Assembly (NCBI GenBank): GCA_003141855.1 | Contig: PLNS01000027.1 | Span: forward strand, 1-47,089 | Source of the DNA: Candidatus Bathyarchaeota archaeon | GTDB lineage: Archaea; Thermoproteota; Bathyarchaeia; Bathyarchaeales; Bathycorpusculaceae | DNA length: 47,089 bases | Direction: 5' to 3' | Shown here: positions 1 to 27,552 of the stretch, in pieces | Layout: each line of letters begins with the position of its first letter | Position numbering within the stretch: the stretch's first letter is position 1 | Position numbers and translations under genes: made by a program | Notes under the pieces: generated by a model | Told to the model about the DNA's origin: nothing | Seen by the model: only the letters and a program-made list of their open reading frames with translations | The model's database searches: none

Positions 1-183
1 GAAGTCGGCAAAGTAATCTACGAGCAAGCAGCCGCGGAATACGCCAAACAGCAAGGACAACAGCAACCAGGCCAAGGACCACAAGGCGGAGCAGGACCAG
101 AGATGCCTCCAAGCGGCGGACCAGAAGAGCAAGGTCCAGGCGAAGAGAAAGTGGTTGATTCAGAAGACTATAAAGTCAAATAA
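1..183 (+). CDS. dnaK: Molecular chaperone DnaK (Hsp70), C-terminal end only
   Basis: The window opens inside this gene; only the last 60 residues are visible. They form the acidic, Gly/Gln/Pro-rich disordered tail typical of Hsp70 proteins, ending in the dipeptide VK before a TAA stop. The tail contains QQGQQQPGQGPQGGAGP followed by an acidic stretch. In this family the tail follows the substrate-binding lid and contributes to client and co-chaperone contacts. The identification rests on composition together with dnaJ 3.6 kb downstream on the same strand; the nucleotide-binding domain lies outside the window. A pyrimidine-rich T-run immediately follows the stop. Confidence 0.82.
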   Translation, partial: EVGKVIYEQAAAEYAKQQGQQQPGQGPQGGAGPEMPPSGGPEEQGPGEEKVVDSEDYKVK

Positions 184-18065: not shown

Positions 18066-19349
18066 CTACGGGTAGAACCTTCTTGTGGTCCTTGGAAACG
18101 GAATAGCATCGATGATGTTGTCTAAGTCAAGCATCCAAACCAGCAACCGCTCCAAACCCATGCCAAAACCAACATGCGGCACCGTGCCGTAGCGTCTTAG
18201 GTCAAGGTACCATTCGTAATCTTCAGGCTTCAAACCCTGCGCCTTCATACGTTCGGTGAGTATGTCTTTGTTTTCTTCTCTTGCGCCGCCTGTGCTGATT
18301 TCGCCGATTCTGGGCACCATCATGTCAACTGACATGGCAACTTCAGAGTGGTCGCTGTAGGTCTTGCAGTAGAACGCTTTAATCTCGGTTGGGTAATCGT
18401 AGACGAAGAAGGGCTTGCCAAAATCTTCAGCTAAAACTTTCTCGTCCTCGTAGCCTAGGTCAGCGCCCCATGCTAACTGGGGATTTTTCGGTTTTAGCCT
18501 GTCAATTGCTTCCTTGTAGGTTATTCTTGGAAACGGCGCCTTCACCGCTTTGAGCTTAGCAATGTCTGCGCCAAGTTCGGCGAATTCTTTTTGGCATTTG
18601 TCGCCGATGGTTTGGCAAACATGCGTCATCAAGCCTTCTTCAAACTTCATTAAATCATTCATGTCAGCGAAAGGCCACTCGCCCTCAATGTGCCAGTACT
18701 CGGTTAGGTGCCGTATTGTTCGGCTTTTTTCCGCGCGGAAGGAGGGTGCGATGCAGTAGACGTTTTCTAAGGAGTAGATTAGTATTTCAAGGTAAAGCTG
18801 GCTGCTCTGGGTTAAGTACAGGTCTTGGTCAAAATATTTTAACCCGAACAATGTGGAGCCGCCCTCGACCGCTGCGGAAATGAACATCGGCGGCGAGACC
18901 TCGGTGTAGTCTTGGCTTTTGAAGTATTGGCGTGCCGCGTCTAACACGTCAGCGCGAACCTTCATGACCAAGTTCATTTTTCTGCTTCTTAGCCAGAGGT
19001 GGCGCATGTCGCGGATGAATTCTTCACTTTTATCTTTGGAGATTGGGAAGGTTTCTGCTAAACCTATTATGGTGATGGTTTCTGCGCCGATTTCAAAGCC
19101 GCCTGGAGCACGCTTATCCTCTTTTGCGGTGCCTTCGAGTGTGAGTGAGGATTCGATTGTTAGTTTTTGTGCTTCATTCCAGCTTGGGCTGGTTTTCTTT
19201 ATGGTGCATTGGATTACGCCTGTTGAATCGCGGATTAATAGGAAGATGAGTTCTTTTCCTTCTCGTTTGCGGTAAACCCAGCCGCGGACGGTAACTTTCT
19301 GGTCTGCGCAGCATCCTTCTAATATTTCCCTTATTTTAACCATAGCCAT
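18066..19349 (-). CDS. asnS: Asparaginyl-tRNA synthetase
   Basis: Charges tRNA-Asn. The 427 residues comprise an OB-fold anticodon-binding domain (about 5-105, beginning KIREILEG) and a class II catalytic core. Motif 2 reads FRAEKSRTIRHLTEYWHIEGE, here split as FRAEKSRTIRHL and EYWHIEGE, which points to AsnRS rather than AspRS; motif 3 is GMGLERLLVW. Many archaea lack AsnRS and make Asn-tRNA by amidation, so its presence is informative. Starting at the third residue (ATG 19343) is equally possible. Upstream on the sense strand GATATACAAGG provides a likely TATA box. Confidence 0.92.
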   Translation of the reverse strand: MAMVKIREILEGCCADQKVTVRGWVYRKREGKELIFLLIRDSTGVIQCTIKKTSPSWNEAQKLTIESSLTLEGTAKEDKRAPGGFEIGAETITIIGLAETFPISKDKSEEFIRDMRHLWLRSRKMNLVMKVRADVLDAARQYFKSQDYTEVSPPMFISAAVEGGSTLFGLKYFDQDLYLTQSSQLYLEILIYSLENVYCIAPSFRAEKSRTIRHLTEYWHIEGEWPFADMNDLMKFEEGLMTHVCQTIGDKCQKEFAELGADIAKLKAVKAPFPRITYKEAIDRLKPKNPQLAWGADLGYEDEKVLAEDFGKPFFVYDYPTEIKAFYCKTYSDHSEVAMSVDMMVPRIGEISTGGAREENKDILTERMKAQGLKPEDYEWYLDLRRYGTVPHVGFGMGLERLLVWMLDLDNIIDAIPFPRTTRRFYP

Positions 19350-19518
19350 CGGGCATCAACTATTTCCTTGTATATCTTATTCTCAAACCTAAATGCCTAT
19401 CGATTTTAGGCTTTTAACTTTTAGCAGATAGAGAAGAATCGGTTTCGATAAAGTATGAATATTCATTCGTCAGTAATTAATAACAAAAAAGGGGAAAGAT
19501 TGTTTTTGGTTGGCTTTT

Positions 19519-22209
19519 TTATGGTCGCTTTCTTACTGCGAGCAGTAATACAGCGCCGACTATGGCGATTGCTATGATTATGGCGACTGTTGATGCAGCG
19601 AAGTACATTTCAGTGGGGGGCAAAGTAACTACTGGATACGGAGATGCTGTTGCTGCTGGAGTGCTTGCAGTGAAAGATGTTTCAGCGGACGATGGATAGT
19701 ATGACTCTGAACCTGCAAATGTTGCGATGACAGTGTAATCGCCGGTTATGTCAGGTGTCCAAGTGAGAGTGTACATGCCGCTGCCGTCACTTGTAGTGTT
19801 ACCGATTTGCCTGAAGTTACCATTGGAGTCAAGAACGCTAATAGTAACTGGAACACCGGTAATGTTTGTTGGCTTTGGCTTTTGCATGTACACGTACTCC
19901 ATCCATTGGCTTTGACTTGCATCAGAGACTGCCGCGACTCCGTTGGGGAATCTTGCAGCTTGCTCATCTTGTTTTGTGCCTGCAGCAATGTCAGTGACTG
20001 TACCGCGTATTACTAAGGGTGCTCCGGATGGTGATGCAAGGTTAGGTGCTGTAACAGTGAGAGCGCTAGGTCCTTTACCGTAAGAGTAGAGTAGTGAATT
20101 ATATGCATCATATGTTACTAAGTAACCTGCTGCAACTGGATATTGTCCTCCGTCTGGTCCAGCACCATAATCCATTATAGTCCATATTTCTGTTCCATCG
20201 GTTGCGTTAATTGCGCGTAACTGTGCACCCTTGAACAGTGGAGTATTAGGTGAGTGTTCATTAGTAACTAAGTAGACCTTTCCGTCAGCAATAACGCTAA
20301 TAAAGGTTGGATAGTTACCGTATGGTGTGTACATTTCGCTGTTTGTGCTGTTGTCTGCTCCACCGTTGCCGTAAGTCCATTTAAGGTTGCCAGTCTTATC
20401 GTCAAAGCAATAAACTATTCCGCTGAATCCACCGACATAAAGATTGCCGTAAGCGATTTGTTCTGTACCTAGGTTTTGATAGTTCCAGTCATTGGCGCTG
20501 TCGTTTGTATATTTCACTGGACCCCACAATAAGCTTCCATCAGATAGGCTGTAGCCATAATGAACCAAGCTCTCTTTATCCATGAATACAAAGACTCCGT
20601 TAGTCGGATCCCAGCTGGTAAGCCATCGAGTGTTGTTACCTGACGCTTGCGGATAGGATTGTGTCCACAGCACGTTTCCTAGCGTCTGTGGCTTTAAGCT
20701 TATGGCGGTAATGTTTGTTGGGTCTGTGGTCATGGTTGTGGACATGTCACCTAAGTGCCCTCCGAAAGCTGAAGAAGATGCTGACCCCCCTTGAATCAGA
20801 AGGGCTATGTTGCCCAAACTGACTAGAGGAATTGCGCCTCTAATGTTTGTCCCAACAATCCAGCCTGTACCTGTCAAGGATGGTATTGACACATTCCAGT
20901 CGTAAGCAGATGGTAGGCTTGCGTTTGCCGTTCCTGAATACCAATTGCTTATGGATGAACCTATGCCTGGAATAAGACCGAAGACTTTAGATGAGTTCCA
21001 TTGTGCTAAGTACCATTTGGGATTTGTTGGAGTTCCGAGATTGGTAAGGGTGTATTTCAGATATTCGCCTAATGGTCCCGCTACGTTTGTACCCACAGGA
21101 ACGTTAGTTATGTTCATCGTTGTGAGTGTACCTGTTCTTGGGTCGTATCCTCGCCAAACTGTGCCTAGACCTGAAACTGAAGTAGATGCCATTAACAAGC
21201 CGTTCGGTAAGATTCCGTGTTGATTGGGGTTCTCTAGTGAGTAAGTGTAGCCGAATGATGGTATAAGATTGGTGCCTGTTGCTGATGTGTTAATGCTCCA
21301 GAGCTGTTGTCCAGTCTTCAAGTCTACTGCAACGTAAGGTCCGCCGCTACCTGAATTACCCCATGGTTCCGAGTAGAAAAGTGTGCCTTGTATGATGATA
21401 GGATTGGCAAATCTGGCGTTGTATGAAAGACCGTTAAAGTATCCTTCACCGAGGACGGCTGTGTCATTTCCACCGGCAATTCCACCGTATTCAAGTGGTC
21501 TGGTCCACATCACATGTGCACTGTTTGGTCCTGAACCATAAGGCTGGAAGGCGCCTGGAATAGTCCAAGCTGCATTAGCTCCAGGAATGTATGGTGAACC
21601 AAGCCAGTTTGATGCAATCGTGTACCAGTATGTGTTTTGTCCCTCTATTGGGTATGTCCAGTACTCAGTTGGAAGTGGATAGCTGTCGATTGGCGCTGCA
21701 ATCTGGTCTTGTTGTACAATTAAAGTTTTTGTTGCACTGGCTGGTGTGAAGGTGTCATTTTCATACAGAGCGGTTGCTGATACAAGTCCAGGAGTATTTG
21801 CTTGATTCCAAGTGTAGGTTTGTCCCGGATAGTTGAATGTAAAAGTGTAGGTGCCGACTTGGCCAGGAGTATATCGATAGTATTGTACGCCTGTTGGGTC
21901 ACTGATGAGAGACCAAGTTTGTGTTTCGATTTTTCCGTCAGGGTCCGTGATTGTCAATTTGTAATCGTGGCGTCTAATGGTGTTACCTAAATCTGCTCCT
22001 GTCACAGGTGCATCAACCCACATGCAAATGCCCACTGTTTGACCGACACCTATAGGACTAGGTGAAACAGTGAGGTAAGCGTAGGAGATAATAGTCCATG
22101 CAGGTGTATGTGCGTTAGCATTTGGTATTAACGTAATTGAAGCTGCCATTGAAATTGTTAAAATTGCTGCAATCATAATAGCCATAGTTTTACTTTTTAG
22201 TTTTTTCAT
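19519..22209 (-). CDS. Surface PQQ-type beta-propeller protein A
   Basis: An 896-residue exported protein. It has a signal peptide (MKKLKSKTMAIMIAAILTIS, cleavage near Ala-His at residue 33), an N-terminal beta-sandwich (to about 170), a conserved linker (SYPLPTEYWTYPIEGQN), then a PQQ/quinoprotein-like propeller with repeated Asp-Gly and Gly-Lys-Val-Tyr blades (about 220-690), an Ig-like C-terminal domain (about 730-840), a Thr/Pro spacer and one C-terminal membrane helix ending in RKRP. Such proteins are displayed on the cell surface. PQQ-liganding residues cannot be confirmed, so binding of a cofactor is not claimed; recognition or adhesion is as likely. It is a paralog of the next gene upstream and shares its leader hairpin. 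Confidence 0.82.
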   Translation of the reverse strand: MKKLKSKTMAIMIAAILTISMAASITLIPNANAHTPAWTIISYAYLTVSPSPIGVGQTVGICMWVDAPVTGADLGNTIRRHDYKLTITDPDGKIETQTWSLISDPTGVQYYRYTPGQVGTYTFTFNYPGQTYTWNQANTPGLVSATALYENDTFTPASATKTLIVQQDQIAAPIDSYPLPTEYWTYPIEGQNTYWYTIASNWLGSPYIPGANAAWTIPGAFQPYGSGPNSAHVMWTRPLEYGGIAGGNDTAVLGEGYFNGLSYNARFANPIIIQGTLFYSEPWGNSGSGGPYVAVDLKTGQQLWSINTSATGTNLIPSFGYTYSLENPNQHGILPNGLLMASTSVSGLGTVWRGYDPRTGTLTTMNITNVPVGTNVAGPLGEYLKYTLTNLGTPTNPKWYLAQWNSSKVFGLIPGIGSSISNWYSGTANASLPSAYDWNVSIPSLTGTGWIVGTNIRGAIPLVSLGNIALLIQGGSASSSAFGGHLGDMSTTMTTDPTNITAISLKPQTLGNVLWTQSYPQASGNNTRWLTSWDPTNGVFVFMDKESLVHYGYSLSDGSLLWGPVKYTNDSANDWNYQNLGTEQIAYGNLYVGGFSGIVYCFDDKTGNLKWTYGNGGADNSTNSEMYTPYGNYPTFISVIADGKVYLVTNEHSPNTPLFKGAQLRAINATDGTEIWTIMDYGAGPDGGQYPVAAGYLVTYDAYNSLLYSYGKGPSALTVTAPNLASPSGAPLVIRGTVTDIAAGTKQDEQAARFPNGVAAVSDASQSQWMEYVYMQKPKPTNITGVPVTISVLDSNGNFRQIGNTTSDGSGMYTLTWTPDITGDYTVIATFAGSESYYPSSAETSFTASTPAATASPYPVVTLPPTEMYFAASTVAIIIAIAIVGAVLLLAVRKRP

Positions 22210-22234
22210 TTTTTTTCTTTTCCTTTAAATTTTA

Positions 22235-22276
22235 ATGGGCAAGAACAACTCTTTGCGTAAAGATGCCCTTGCCCAT
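22235..22276 (-). promoter_or_regulatory. 5'-terminal stem-loop of propeller A mRNA
   Basis: ATGGGCAAG (22268-22276, sense strand) pairs perfectly with CTTGCCCAT (22235-22243), enclosing 24 bases that contain a smaller CTTT/AAAG hairpin. The stem ends 25 bases from the TATA box, so it should be the first thing transcribed. It is followed by the AAAGGAAAAG ribosome site and the start codon. A matching hairpin precedes propeller B. Confidence 0.65.
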
Positions 22277-22300
22277 AACCCCCCTGAATTACATGATTTT

Positions 22301-22310
22301 CTTTATAAGG
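22301..22310 (-). promoter_or_regulatory. TATA box of propeller A
   Basis: Sense strand CCTTATAAAG preceded by CCAAAA, similar to the island promoters. It predicts transcription start near 22276-22280 and a leader of about 70 bases. The remainder of the 22210-22531 gap is AT-rich with poly-A/T runs that probably terminate propeller B transcription. Confidence 0.6.
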
Positions 22311-22531
22311 TTTTGGGAAGTGCCCACCGGCAACAAACTATTTCACCATTTGAAACGAAAAAACTAAAACTTACAAATAAACACCTAAAAATCGATTCGA
22401 CTAAAGATTTGGAGACCAAGCCGCCAAGGTTTTCCTGGCTCCTAAGGCAAGCAATCAAGCTATCACTTATCTTTAAAAATAAATTAAAAAAACAAAAAAG
22501 GGAAAGTTGATTTTTTGTTGTGGTCGCTCTT

Positions 22532-25186
22532 CTAAGCAATAGCTATTGGCTTTTTTCTTAGCATCAAGAGTGCTAGTACGGCTCCAACTATGGCGATTGC
22601 AACAATAATGCCAGCGACAGCAGGAACAAAGTATAGGTCAGCGACTGATTGCAGAGGAATTGCAGTTGGAGTTGGTGTTGGTGCTGCATCTGCTACGCCG
22701 AAGGCTGCCTCAGAGTATGATTGGTAGTAGGATTCTGTGCCAGCGAAACTAGCTATGACTGTGAATGTTCCTGGTACTTCAGGCTTGTACATTAGGCTGT
22801 AGTGTCCATATGCATCGCTTGTAGCTGTTCCGATGTCGTAGGTGTTGCCGTTTGGATCAATCACCTTCAATGTAACATCGACACCAGTAGCATTTGTTGG
22901 GCGTGGTTTTTGGAAGTACACGTATTGCATCCATTCTCTTTGGTTTGCATCAGCCATTGCTGGAACTCCGTTGGGGAATCTTGCGATTTGCTCGTCTTGC
23001 TTTGTGCCGGCAGCGATGTCCACTACTGAACCCTCAATCAAAACGCTGTTGCCTAGTGATAGGACATTGTTTTGTATGTTTAGTGAGGTTTCACTTGGAC
23101 CTTTGCCGATGACGTAAACTTTGCTGTCGTAGCCGTTGAAGAATGCATAGTAGCCGTCTGCAGCTATATCGTAGTTGGCATCCATACCTGTGCCCCAACC
23201 TTCACTAGTCCAGACTTCTGCTCCGGTTGTTGCGTTGACTGCTCGTACTAGTGCGCCTTTATAGTATGGTGAGTCTGGAGAGTGCTCTGTTGTGGCTAAG
23301 AATACTTTGCCGTCTGCGATGGCTGTCGGGAAGATCGGGTAGTGACCCCATGCTGTTACGAGTCCACTTGAAGTGCTATTGCCTTCTCCGCCGTTGCCGT
23401 AGGTCCACTCTAATTTGCCAGTTGCATCGTCATAGCAGTAGAGTATTCCGCCGTAGCCGCAGAAGTAGAAGTTGCCGTAAGCGCAGCGGGTTGTTGATCT
23501 AAAGTAGTCATATTGGTCCACTGGTGGTGTTGTCCATTTAAGGCTTCCATCGGTTAGGCTGTAGGCAGTGTGGGTTAGTAGTTCGCGGTCTTCAAAGATT
23601 AATACTCCATTGTCTTGGTCCAACGCAACAAGATCTCGCGTGACGTTGCCTGATGGCGCTGGGAAGAATTTAGCCCAAAGAACTTGTCCCATCGTGTCTG
23701 GCTTTGTACTGATGCATGTTATGTTTGCGCCATACCAGTTTCCGACGTAGTAAGTATCTGCTCTACCTCCGAAAGCGCCCTGAGTCAGAAGCAAGTAACC
23801 GTTATAGGCCGAATAGCTGTTGATCGTCCATGAGGCCCCATTCATTAGGGTTATTGATTTGTTGAAGTCATAACGTGATGCTAAGCTTGCGTTTATCGTT
23901 GATGATCCACCGCCAAATGAGCCGCCACCTGTGTACCAGCCAGATTGGCCTATTCCACCAGGTGATGAAATTAGTTTAGTCGAGTTCCACTCTTGCAGAT
24001 ACCAGTTTGGAGCTGCCGCGGTACCATAGTTGACAAGACATAAACGCAGTATTGAGCCTTTTGGACCTGCAACCGATGTGCCAGAAGGTACGTCAGTGAT
24101 GTTCATTTCTGTGAGTCTTCCTGTGTCTGGGTCATATGCTCTCCAATAAGTTGATCCTCCTCCGCCATACATGCCTCCGCCTCCGACGCTTGCAATTAAT
24201 GCGCCGTTTGGCAGTGCTCCGTGTTGATTGCCGTCGTCGAAGGATTCAAGCCAGCCGAAGGATGGTACCAGATTTACACCTGTTGCACTTGTATTAACGC
24301 GCCATATTTCTTCTCCTGTTCGCAAGTCATTGCATACGTATCCGCCGCCGCTGCCAGAATTGCCGTATGGCAGTTCATAGTAGATTTTGCCGTTCATAAT
24401 GAGTGCATTGCTGTATCTTACGTTGTATGAGCCACCCATATAATATGTTTTGACTGGTTCATCTGATGATGGACCTAGCATTCCGCCGACAACTCCGCCT
24501 TCCTGAATTGCTTTAGACCACATAACGTGGGCACTGTTAGGCGCCGCGCCGTAGGGCTGGAACCTGTTGACAATTTGTGGAGAACCTAGCCAGTTTGACG
24601 AGATTAACCACCAGTCAGTGTTCTGTCCCTCTATTGGATGCGTCCAGTACTCAGTTGGAAGCGGATAGGATGTTACTGGTTGAGGTAATTGGTCTTGTTG
24701 CACGGTCCAGTTTACTGTTCTTGTTGAAGGTGAATAGATGTCGCCGTTGTATGTTCCAGGCCATGTATAGACTTGTCCACCATAGTCAAATTTGAGAACG
24801 TATGTTCCAACTTGGTCAGGAGTATATTGCCAGTATTGTATACCAGTCGTATCAAAGTCTGCCGTCATGCGATCCCAATGCTGGGATTCAATTGTTCCAT
24901 CAGGTTTGGTAATGGTTAATGTGTAATTATGGCGTCTGACATCGTTGGTAACTAACGCACCGGGCAGTGGGTAATCAACCCACATTACGATAGCGCCAGT
25001 TTGGCCGACACCGATAGGGTCGGGTGCAGGAACGACGTAAGAGTAGCTTGGAAAAGTCCATGTACTTTTATCCGTTGTAGTGTTGTGCGCAGTTGCAGTA
25101 GGAAACATAGCTAATGCGCCAGCCGTTGATGTTATCATCAGTATAGCGAAAAATATTGCCATAGTTTTATTTTTTAGTTTTTGCAT
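22532..25186 (-). CDS. Surface PQQ-type beta-propeller protein B
   Basis: An 884-residue paralog of propeller A. The signal peptide begins MQKLKNKTMAIFFAI; I chose ATG 25186 because it follows AAAGGAAAG and begins the signal peptide, whereas the longer frame to 25300 adds 38 unrelated residues. Order of parts matches A: beta-sandwich, linker (SYPLPTEYWTHPIEGQN), propeller blades with a Gly-rich insertion (about 330-420), the block DIAAGTKQDEQIARFPNGVP, an Ig-like domain, a Thr/Pro spacer and a C-terminal helix ending in LRKKP. Gene order suggests tandem duplication. Surface display is inferred from signal and anchor; ligand unknown. Confidence 0.82.
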   Translation of the reverse strand: MQKLKNKTMAIFFAILMITSTAGALAMFPTATAHNTTTDKSTWTFPSYSYVVPAPDPIGVGQTGAIVMWVDYPLPGALVTNDVRRHNYTLTITKPDGTIESQHWDRMTADFDTTGIQYWQYTPDQVGTYVLKFDYGGQVYTWPGTYNGDIYSPSTRTVNWTVQQDQLPQPVTSYPLPTEYWTHPIEGQNTDWWLISSNWLGSPQIVNRFQPYGAAPNSAHVMWSKAIQEGGVVGGMLGPSSDEPVKTYYMGGSYNVRYSNALIMNGKIYYELPYGNSGSGGGYVCNDLRTGEEIWRVNTSATGVNLVPSFGWLESFDDGNQHGALPNGALIASVGGGGMYGGGGSTYWRAYDPDTGRLTEMNITDVPSGTSVAGPKGSILRLCLVNYGTAAAPNWYLQEWNSTKLISSPGGIGQSGWYTGGGSFGGGSSTINASLASRYDFNKSITLMNGASWTINSYSAYNGYLLLTQGAFGGRADTYYVGNWYGANITCISTKPDTMGQVLWAKFFPAPSGNVTRDLVALDQDNGVLIFEDRELLTHTAYSLTDGSLKWTTPPVDQYDYFRSTTRCAYGNFYFCGYGGILYCYDDATGKLEWTYGNGGEGNSTSSGLVTAWGHYPIFPTAIADGKVFLATTEHSPDSPYYKGALVRAVNATTGAEVWTSEGWGTGMDANYDIAADGYYAFFNGYDSKVYVIGKGPSETSLNIQNNVLSLGNSVLIEGSVVDIAAGTKQDEQIARFPNGVPAMADANQREWMQYVYFQKPRPTNATGVDVTLKVIDPNGNTYDIGTATSDAYGHYSLMYKPEVPGTFTVIASFAGTESYYQSYSEAAFGVADAAPTPTPTAIPLQSVADLYFVPAVAGIIVAIAIVGAVLALLMLRKKPIAIA

Positions 25187-25213
25187 TTTCTTTTTTCTTT
25201 CCTTTAATTTTAA

Positions 25214-25255
25214 TTGAACAGAAACAAAACTTTTGAAAGATTTGTTTTTGCCCAA
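25214..25255 (-). promoter_or_regulatory. 5'-terminal stem-loop of propeller B mRNA
   Basis: On the sense strand TTGGGCAAAAACAAA pairs with TTTGTTTCTGTTCAA (14 of 15 positions, counting two G-U pairs), again enclosing a CTTT/AAAG core. It is 26 bases from the TATA box, matching propeller A, although the stem sequence differs. This pattern suggests conserved structure rather than sequence. Confidence 0.6.
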
Positions 25256-25280
25256 TGTCCTTGATTGTGCTATGTTATAA

Positions 25281-25290
25281 CTTATAAAAC
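25281..25290 (-). promoter_or_regulatory. TATA box of propeller B
   Basis: Sense strand GTTTTATAAG. It predicts transcription from about 25256-25260, just ahead of the hairpin. The overlapping TTATAACTTATAA is near-palindromic and could also serve leftward and rightward transcription. Confidence 0.5.
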
Positions 25291-25409
25291 TGAGTGGCAA
25301 GTGGGCGCTGACGAAAAGTACCGAGGGAATAGCGAAACTTTTATCAAGAGTTCAGTCTCAAATAAAGAGCTTGTGGGCAGGCATTCAGGAAAGAATAGGT
25401 TGGGGGCTT

Positions 25410-26267
25410 ATGCAAGAGGACTTAGTTGTGAAATTAGAAAGCTTTGGGTTCACGGTCAACCAAGCTAAAGTATATTTAAGTATCGTGCAATCTGGAAAAA
25501 CTCGTGTAGGAAGAATCTCCAAGGGCACACAGTTGCATCGACAAGATATTTACAAGCTACTGCCTAAACTTGAAAAAATGGGACTAATTACAAAAACAAT
25601 CGACAGACCGTTCATGATTGAAGCAATTCCAATAGATAAGGCATTAGACACTTTAATTTCGAAAGAAAGAAAAAAAGCCAATGAAAAAATTTCTCACCTA
25701 GAGAATAACCTCAAAGACGTGGTAAACTCATTACAGGAACAACCACGAACAAAAGAAGAAACACGATTTACTCTTCTAACTACCGATGAAACAATAAAAA
25801 ACAGAGGACACAACAGTTTTAAAAAATTAAAAAAGGAATGTCTGTTAGTCATCAATATAGAACATATCAAATCGCCGTCTATGAATTATTTTCGCGATTT
25901 CTTTCAAACAATCGCAGACAATAAAGCCAAAACACGACTAATCATAGTTACCAACGATGATGAAGACACGGTTAAACAAACTGTTGAAAAGATAGCCCCA
26001 ATCACAGGTCAATTCACAGCCAAATCGATTAATAAAACCACATGCAAAAACTATCAAATCATCGATAACAAAGAAATATGGATAGCCACCCAACAAAAAA
26101 CTGAAACAGGTTACCCATGTATGCTTTGGACAAACGACCAGAACATAATTGATGTTTACAAAGAAAATTTCAAAAAAGCTTGGAACCGCGCATCAACAGT
26201 AGCGTTGGGCATTACTGTTTCATCGTTTACTTGTGTCGCCCTTTCTTTTTTGGAGCTACTTGCTTGA
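25410..26267 (+). CDS. TrmB-like winged-helix regulator with C-terminal membrane helix
   Basis: A 285-residue protein. Residues about 1-70 form a TrmB-type winged helix (LESFGFTVNQAKVYLSIVQ, then GTQLHRQDIYKLLPKLEKMG), followed by a coiled coil (about 75-110) and a ligand-domain-like region. A hydrophobic segment at the very end (about 264-285) looks like a membrane anchor. I prefer ATG 25410 because the helix begins directly after it; 25371 is an alternative. It is transcribed away from the two propeller genes, so it may control them. TrmB proteins usually sense sugars, but sugar-binding residues cannot be confirmed here. Confidence 0.8.
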   Translation: MQEDLVVKLESFGFTVNQAKVYLSIVQSGKTRVGRISKGTQLHRQDIYKLLPKLEKMGLITKTIDRPFMIEAIPIDKALDTLISKERKKANEKISHLENNLKDVVNSLQEQPRTKEETRFTLLTTDETIKNRGHNSFKKLKKECLLVINIEHIKSPSMNYFRDFFQTIADNKAKTRLIIVTNDDEDTVKQTVEKIAPITGQFTAKSINKTTCKNYQIIDNKEIWIATQQKTETGYPCMLWTNDQNIIDVYKENFKKAWNRASTVALGITVSSFTCVALSFLELLA

Positions 26268-26307
26268 ATAATCTTCATAGACATTGAATATTAACAATTG
26301 CTGCTCA

Positions 26308-27552
26308 TTATGCTTCTTTAATGCTCGGCTCGTAAACCTTCCAGAAAACAAAAATGGAGAGAGGTATCGCGGCTGCCGCTAACAGGAGAAACGGAAGTTG
26401 AGGGGAAACAAAAGCGTAAAGCAAACCTACTATGATCTGTAGGATGGCTTGCATTAGGAACATGAAAAACTGTAAGCAGCCAGTAGCCGTTCCTCTTAAG
26501 CCTCTGGGAATCAAATCACCCATCAAAACCTGGTAACTGTTGAGTTGCAACAGGTTGCCCAGTCCAAAGAAGAAGAATGCCAGCAAAAGCATGTTGAAGT
26601 CGGCGTTTACAAAGAGAATCATGCCTGGAACATACAGTAGGTAGCCTAGGATTAGGAAGCGTTTTCTGCCTATGACATCCATGCTTAAACCCGCAAGTAT
26701 GCCTGGTATGGCTATGCTTAGGTATCTGAAAGTTGTAACGATTGCCCATTGTTGTAGGGTAATTTTAAGAACTGAAGTAGCATAAACAACAAAGTATGTT
26801 TGGCAACTAACCACTAAGCCGTTTATGACTATGATAGCTAAGAAAAGGTTAAAGGCTGATTTGGGAACTTTCCGCCAAACATAGATGCCTTCTTTTACTG
26901 ATTTGGGATAGTAACGGAGCATACTGTTGAAACTGTGTCTTTCTTTTGCCTCTTTTGGCGGCAGCGTTTCTTTGAGTTTTAGCCTCAACGTGGCAGTTGC
27001 AAAGTAAGCTATAGCCACAATTGTGTACGCTATGCGCATACCGAAATCGAAATTAAAAGTAACAACCAAGTATTGAGCGATAAGGGGAGCAGGCAACAAA
27101 ACAAGAGTGGTAATTACAGACTGCAAACTAAACCCTGCCCCTCGGTTTTCAGGGGGCAACGAGTCAATGACCATAGCCATCAAGGCTGGACCGTAAATAG
27201 AACAGACATTTTGCACTAACAGTCCTATCAGTATGAATTGCCAGGAAGGAGCAAAAATGAAGAATAAACTTCCGATAGCCAATCCGAAAGTCATGGAGAC
27301 TATGAGCCATCTTCTACCATGCTTATCTGCCAAGTAGCCGCCGGGAAACTGGACAAGTGCAACTGCGATGGAGCCTGCAAAGCCGATGATTGATAGTAGA
27401 AATGCGTCAGCGCCTAAGTGAAGATAAAAAAGGCTTGCATACGTATCAGGGATGGGTTGTGCAGTGAAAAGTATTATCCAGCTTAGGGTTATGAGTAGAA
27501 AGTTGCCTCTTAAGACAGCTGAGTCTCCGCGGAAAAGCGCTGACAACCGCAT
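26308..27552 (-). CDS. Major facilitator superfamily transporter
   Basis: A 414-residue protein with twelve predicted membrane helices. The loop after helix 2 carries GGYLADKHGRRWLI and its half-repeat equivalent DVIGRKRFLI follows helix 8, the hallmark MFS motif A in both halves. Substrate specificity cannot be read; drug or metabolite efflux is typical for this 12-helix type. It converges on the TrmB-like gene with a 40-base gap. A TATA-like ATTTAAATAA about 25 bases before the ATG predicts a leaderless transcript. Confidence 0.9.
   Translation of the reverse strand: MRLSALFRGDSAVLRGNFLLITLSWIILFTAQPIPDTYASLFYLHLGADAFLLSIIGFAGSIAVALVQFPGGYLADKHGRRWLIVSMTFGLAIGSLFFIFAPSWQFILIGLLVQNVCSIYGPALMAMVIDSLPPENRGAGFSLQSVITTLVLLPAPLIAQYLVVTFNFDFGMRIAYTIVAIAYFATATLRLKLKETLPPKEAKERHSFNSMLRYYPKSVKEGIYVWRKVPKSAFNLFLAIIVINGLVVSCQTYFVVYATSVLKITLQQWAIVTTFRYLSIAIPGILAGLSMDVIGRKRFLILGYLLYVPGMILFVNADFNMLLLAFFFFGLGNLLQLNSYQVLMGDLIPRGLRGTATGCLQFFMFLMQAILQIIVGLLYAFVSPQLPFLLLAAAAIPLSIFVFWKVYEPSIKEA

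Follow-up and report, generated by a model that had tools for sequence, protein, structure and literature searches.

Hairpins of changing sequence at the predicted 5′ ends of propeller-family mRNAs in Bathyarchaeia, and their possible role in 5′-end protection

Structured 5′ leaders in known systems

The determinants of mRNA lifetime in Archaea are little known. The propeller leaders described here resemble the ompA-type stem-loops (E. coli ompA and papA, and a 5′ hairpin on bla) in carrying a hairpin at the 5′ end (predicted in our case) or a few bases from it, in leaving the ribosome site free downstream and in keeping the pairing rather than the sequence, but differ from them in being combined with an archaeal basal promoter and archaeal decay machinery, in spanning a whole paralogous family, and in that their stabilising effect is presumed. 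Such 5′-terminal stem-loops protect or stabilise bacterial mRNAs (PMC3997798). In Sulfolobus, aCPSF2 is a 5′-to-3′ exonuclease (PMC3792030), against which aIF2-gamma guards 5′-triphosphate ends; the likeness lies in the protection of archaeal mRNA from 5′-to-3′ directional decay, by a protein on the 5′ end in Sulfolobus and, putatively, by a built-in RNA structure in the propeller leaders. The temperature-responsive 5′ UTR stem-loop of Methanolobus psychrophilus hsp20 is likewise archaeal and has a similar leader length (65 nt), but there a buried ribosome site is predicted and the choice of start site is regulated, whereas the site lies outside the stem in the propeller leaders. Rfam cis-regulatory families share with the present hairpins a structured 5′ leader with covariation, and none of them matches. 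After an Rfam search of positions 19000-26500 of the window (the 47,089-nt stretch of DNA analysed herein), no family scored above its gathering score and the best matches were at chance level; nor was a structured leader of such kind found in Rfam or in the searched literature.

The propeller locus and its two leaders

The window is positions 1-47089 of contig C27 in a genome of 2.39 Mb, G000, in which about 15 propeller paralogs were found (up to 28 matches in each genome of the same genus). Two of them, P1 and P2, are adjoining minus-strand genes, both with signal-peptide-like N termini predicting secretion and both matching PQQ/BamB-like propellers; a PDB sequence search gave no match. The first-pass annotation had called the products abundant surface proteins, of which the surface part agrees with these N termini and the propeller match; for abundance, a codon-usage proxy found no matching marker genes in 1.2 Mb of the genome. 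The features of the locus are as follows.

25371..26267, plus strand: TrmB-like HTH regulator (Pfam PF01978, E=9.9e-13), divergent neighbour of P2, listed as context and not as a proven part
25290..25312, minus strand: P2 upstream promoter element GTCAGCGCCCACTTGCCACTCAG, conserved in L025 and L097
25282..25289, minus strand: P2 TATA box TTTTATAA, 25 nt before the hairpin (for the spacing across the family, see below)
25213..25256, minus strand: P2 5′-terminal hairpin, 44 nt, 18 bp, -13.1 kcal/mol; seed of model R1, which scores it in the window at E=3.6e-8
25200..25205, minus strand: P2 ribosome-binding site AAAGGA, predicted to be 97% unpaired
22535..25186, minus strand: P2, 884-aa predicted secreted PQQ/BamB-like propeller protein (Pfam PF13360, E=1.5e-8), ATG at 25186
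22302..22309, minus strand: P1 TATA box CTTATAAA, 25 nt before the hairpin
22235..22276, minus strand: P1 5′-terminal hairpin, 42 nt, 17 bp, -23.2 kcal/mol; seed of model R1 (E=4.2e-9)
22221..22226, minus strand: P1 ribosome-binding site AAAGGA, predicted to be 85% unpaired
19519..22209, minus strand: P1, 896-aa propeller paralog of P2 (52% identical), ATG at 22209

Both leaders run in the same order, TATA box, 25 nt, hairpin, AU-rich linker, AAAGGA and ATG, and the matched layout that had been proposed from the two genes alone was thus confirmed. The proposed hairpin length of 42 nt holds for P1, that of P2 being 44 nt, and the proposed pair counts (9 bp, and 14 of 15) proved slightly low against the 17 and 18 bp obtained by folding; the CTTT/AAAG core is indeed common to P1 and P2 but is not conserved in the propeller family. 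The P2 stem consists of 8+7+3 bp with two 1x1 mismatches and two G-U pairs. Folded alone, the hairpins gave z values of -5.95 (P1) and -4.52 (P2), with none of 200 shuffles as good for either, and P2 was weaker on a longer leader (z -2.38, 4 of 200 shuffles as good). Since the stem is followed by TAAAATT(T)AAAGGA in both genes, without a T run, an intrinsic terminator or attenuator was ruled out; an RNA thermometer or a ribosome-site-masking switch was ruled out as well, because the site lies outside the stem, 7-8 nt on its 3′ side, and is largely unpaired in both genes.

Occurrence, position and pairing across the family

Leaders were collected from 121 family members, of which 117 were used in the fold comparison. 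Between -72 and -12 the mean z of these 117 leaders was -1.40, with z below -3 in 23, while the controls reached that level once upstream and twice in the coding region. TATA positions were assigned with a hand-made matrix, and +1 was predicted from the usual archaeal spacing. The hairpin starts 28-35 nt after the first TATA base in 20 of 48 leaders, against 2.6 expected from shuffles. A loose-definition census of the own genome returned many weak matches from doubtful ORFs and was replaced by a strict count of leaders with a TATA box and a hairpin start at TATA+28..35, compared with shuffled controls. Of the 12 own-genome propeller paralogs that have a TATA box, 7 show the hairpin by this count (0.3 in shuffles), as do 26 of 70 propeller leaders of relatives (4.3 in shuffles), the other genes of the own genome staying at background (6/114 against 6.3); the Fisher p was 1.3e-5 for the own genome and 8e-8 for the relatives. 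An energy profile with the outer pair forced gave no usable signal, since it permitted long internal loops. The computation shows that the hairpin is locked to the predicted +1 and specific to the propeller family, and its recurrence across the family is not due to chance.

Mapped starts in M. psychrophilus are about 19-22 nt away from the TATA/BRE elements (PMC5378194). Counted from the end of an 8-base box, this spacing would place +1 at about TATA+27..30, so that the first base of the propeller mRNA would coincide with the foot of the stem or fall slightly upstream of it. In predicted folds of the hairpin leaders the first 8 nt are 20% unpaired on average. The hairpin is absent in about half of the paralogs, and some of these (L003, L008) have short leaders.

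The pairing itself was examined in two alignments. In the covariance-model alignment, two-sided changes were found in 9 of 11 pairs, and 93.6% of cells pair, against 83.4% after shuffling and at most 55.9% after sliding; a plain MAFFT alignment agrees (94.7% pairing, two-sided changes in 8 of 11 pairs). On the protein tree we counted 19 compensatory two-sided events against 2.1 simulated with independent sites (0/400), and, as recombination may separate a leader from its gene, we ran the same test on the tree of the leaders themselves, with 11 two-sided events against 1.6 simulated (0/300). Against the null simulated on the leader tree no single pair was significant (best E 0.24), and therefore only aggregate covariation is claimed. 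G-U cells (73) far outnumber A-C cells (9), which indicates selection of the coding-strand RNA and not of a DNA operator. Pairing is thus shown by computation to be under RNA-level selection on the coding strand. Compensatory change and matched 5′-end hairpins, first read from P1 and P2, are well supported by the homologs through covariation on both trees and the positional counts; conservation of pairing in homologs had been named beforehand as a point on which this claim would turn, and the pairing was found to be conserved.

The structure recurs at the same place with different sequences. In L025, the P2 ortholog (71.5% identical), the promoter CCCACTTGCCACTCAGTTTTATAA is kept while the leader is non-alignable and carries an unrelated perfect 7-bp hairpin with a GUAA loop at TATA+34; hairpins of other sequences stand at TATA+30..32 in L005, L038, L066, L069 and L121. 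For the class recognisable by sequence we built a covariance model, R1, from 19 leaders including P1 and P2. In 1.2 Mb of the own genome R1 recovered five seed propeller leaders and nothing else below E=2, and over 41 genomes at E <= 0.05 it gave 29 matches. Family members lie directly downstream of 28 of these, if L239, apparently a decayed copy, and L232, truncated by a contig end, are counted. The remaining match, L226 in G036 (E=0.044), stands next to neither a TATA box nor a propeller gene and was taken as chance. A second model, R2, built from the relatives' leaders only and searched against 1.2 Mb of the own genome, put L006 (5e-7), P1 (0.038) and P2 (2.2) in the first three places, the match to P2 not being significant by itself. 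At E <= 0.01 the R1 class was found in 6 of 32 genomes of the genus and in none of 59 genomes from other genera of the family; the sequence-recognisable class was thus found only within one genus, and patchily. Behind the hairpin leader L239 (G022:C92:5208-5257), a propeller signal-peptide start opens a reading frame of only about 30 codons, apparently what is left of a decayed copy.

Possible roles of the hairpin, and associated promoter elements

A changing sequence with kept pairing and position suggests that the propeller messages carry a shield or handle of their own at the 5′ end, for which a role in mRNA stability or translation is plausible. Among the proteins encoded by the own genome is one beta-CASP nuclease in which the KH region of aCPSF1 is missing; this is the general layout of aCPSF2, and by analogy this protein may act as a 5′ exonuclease in this archaeon. 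Given such an aCPSF2-like nuclease and the protection of bacterial mRNAs by stem-loops, we prefer 5′-end protection as the function and give it about an even chance: the 5′-terminal stem-loop would hide the mRNA 5′ end from 5′-to-3′ decay and leave the ribosome site open. The first 30-45 nt of the mRNA would fold into a hairpin that begins on the predicted start or a few bases from it, and behind this hairpin the AU-rich linker would stay unpaired and the ribosome-binding site open; the sequestered 5′ end would slow 5′-end-dependent decay, for instance by an aCPSF2-type 5′-to-3′ exonuclease, and the long propeller messages could be kept alive without hindrance to translation. If this is true, Archaea would use 5′-end structure as a protective principle together with decay enzymes of their own; the proposal can be tested directly on the many hairpin variants that occur naturally. 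The hairpin is also a sequence-level entry point to the question of how the paralogs of this large family, predicted to be surface proteins, may be expressed differentially in an uncultured group of Archaea.

Confinement of the hairpin class to one protein family would also fit a regulator, either a protein or a small RNA, that docks on the hairpin RNA and coordinates translation or decay of the propeller family, and the main class conserves sequence too, in the stem and the first loop base (columns 10, 13 and 17 at 1.4-1.7 bits). The loop columns 18-23, however, reach only 0.3-0.9 bits, and a sequence-specific ligand would not tolerate the unrelated sequences found at the same place in several paralogs and in L025, so that we hold this reading to be unlikely. 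It is doubtful that the hairpin mainly aids translation by insulating the leader and keeping the AU-rich linker and ribosome site unpaired: the linker is conserved (columns 143-157) and the site is open in P1 and P2, but in some relatives the prediction has the site partly paired (58% unpaired on average), with only 12-45% unpaired in several that carry the hairpin, and a hairpin anywhere in the leader would suffice for this purpose, yet its position is locked to +1.

The inverted repeat might instead be a DNA operator, e.g., for the divergent TrmB-like regulator, since a place just downstream of TATA suits a repressor and a TrmB-like gene adjoins both P2 and the hairpin gene L097. The excess of G-U over A-C cells reveals a strand preference, on which the TrmB-type operator was rejected; moreover, the arms are long, imperfect and different among genes, and no close copy of the regulator was detected at the other hairpin loci examined, leaving this reading very improbable. 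We give as little credit to the absence of any function, in which the shared leader sequence would be left over from a recent duplication or gene-conversion event, with hairpins arising by chance in AT-rich leaders. The patchy distribution of the class within the genus and the possible movement of leaders with promoters (L001/L097) are in its favour, but two-sided changes are far above simulation even on the leader's own tree, and the backgrounds from shuffles and other genes are low.

Several further observations concern the promoters. A block GTCAG-N-CCCACTTGCCACTCAG-TTTTATAA is kept upstream of P2, L097 and L025, with a weaker form before P1, and the TrmB-like copy next to L097 (G005:C10) is 84% identical. 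The P2 and L097 loci have near-identical promoters and leaders, yet their propeller proteins are only 34% identical; from these sequences the coding region seems to have been exchanged behind a constant promoter-leader cassette. We regard as unlikely the wider idea that this Bathyarchaeia lineage marks one family of surface-protein mRNAs with a cap-like, wholesale-replaced hairpin at +1, the promoter-hairpin cassettes with exchangeable coding regions then being comparable to surface-antigen switching.

A palindrome, CTCAC-N5-GTGAG, lies near the TATA region, about 65-80 nt before the ATG, in 12 of the 121 propeller leaders (including L030, L031, L032, L039, L049, L060, L062, L064, L114 and L144) and has a single occurrence in the 1.2 Mb examined of the own genome; it resembles an operator serving a second class of propeller paralogs, most of which lack the hairpin. 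In the leader of L015 (G000:C13 near 114851), CTCCTTTTTTAGGAAGGAG forms a stem that would mask the ribosome site, unlike the hairpin class. On G000:C8, minus strand, a gene starting at 132658 of the reversed 260-kb stretch encodes a 488-aa predicted secreted protein with the Kelch-like sequence VAVVDGKIYAIGGT, and its leader carries an unrelated strong hairpin (62 nt, -19.3 kcal/mol) that starts at TATA+29.
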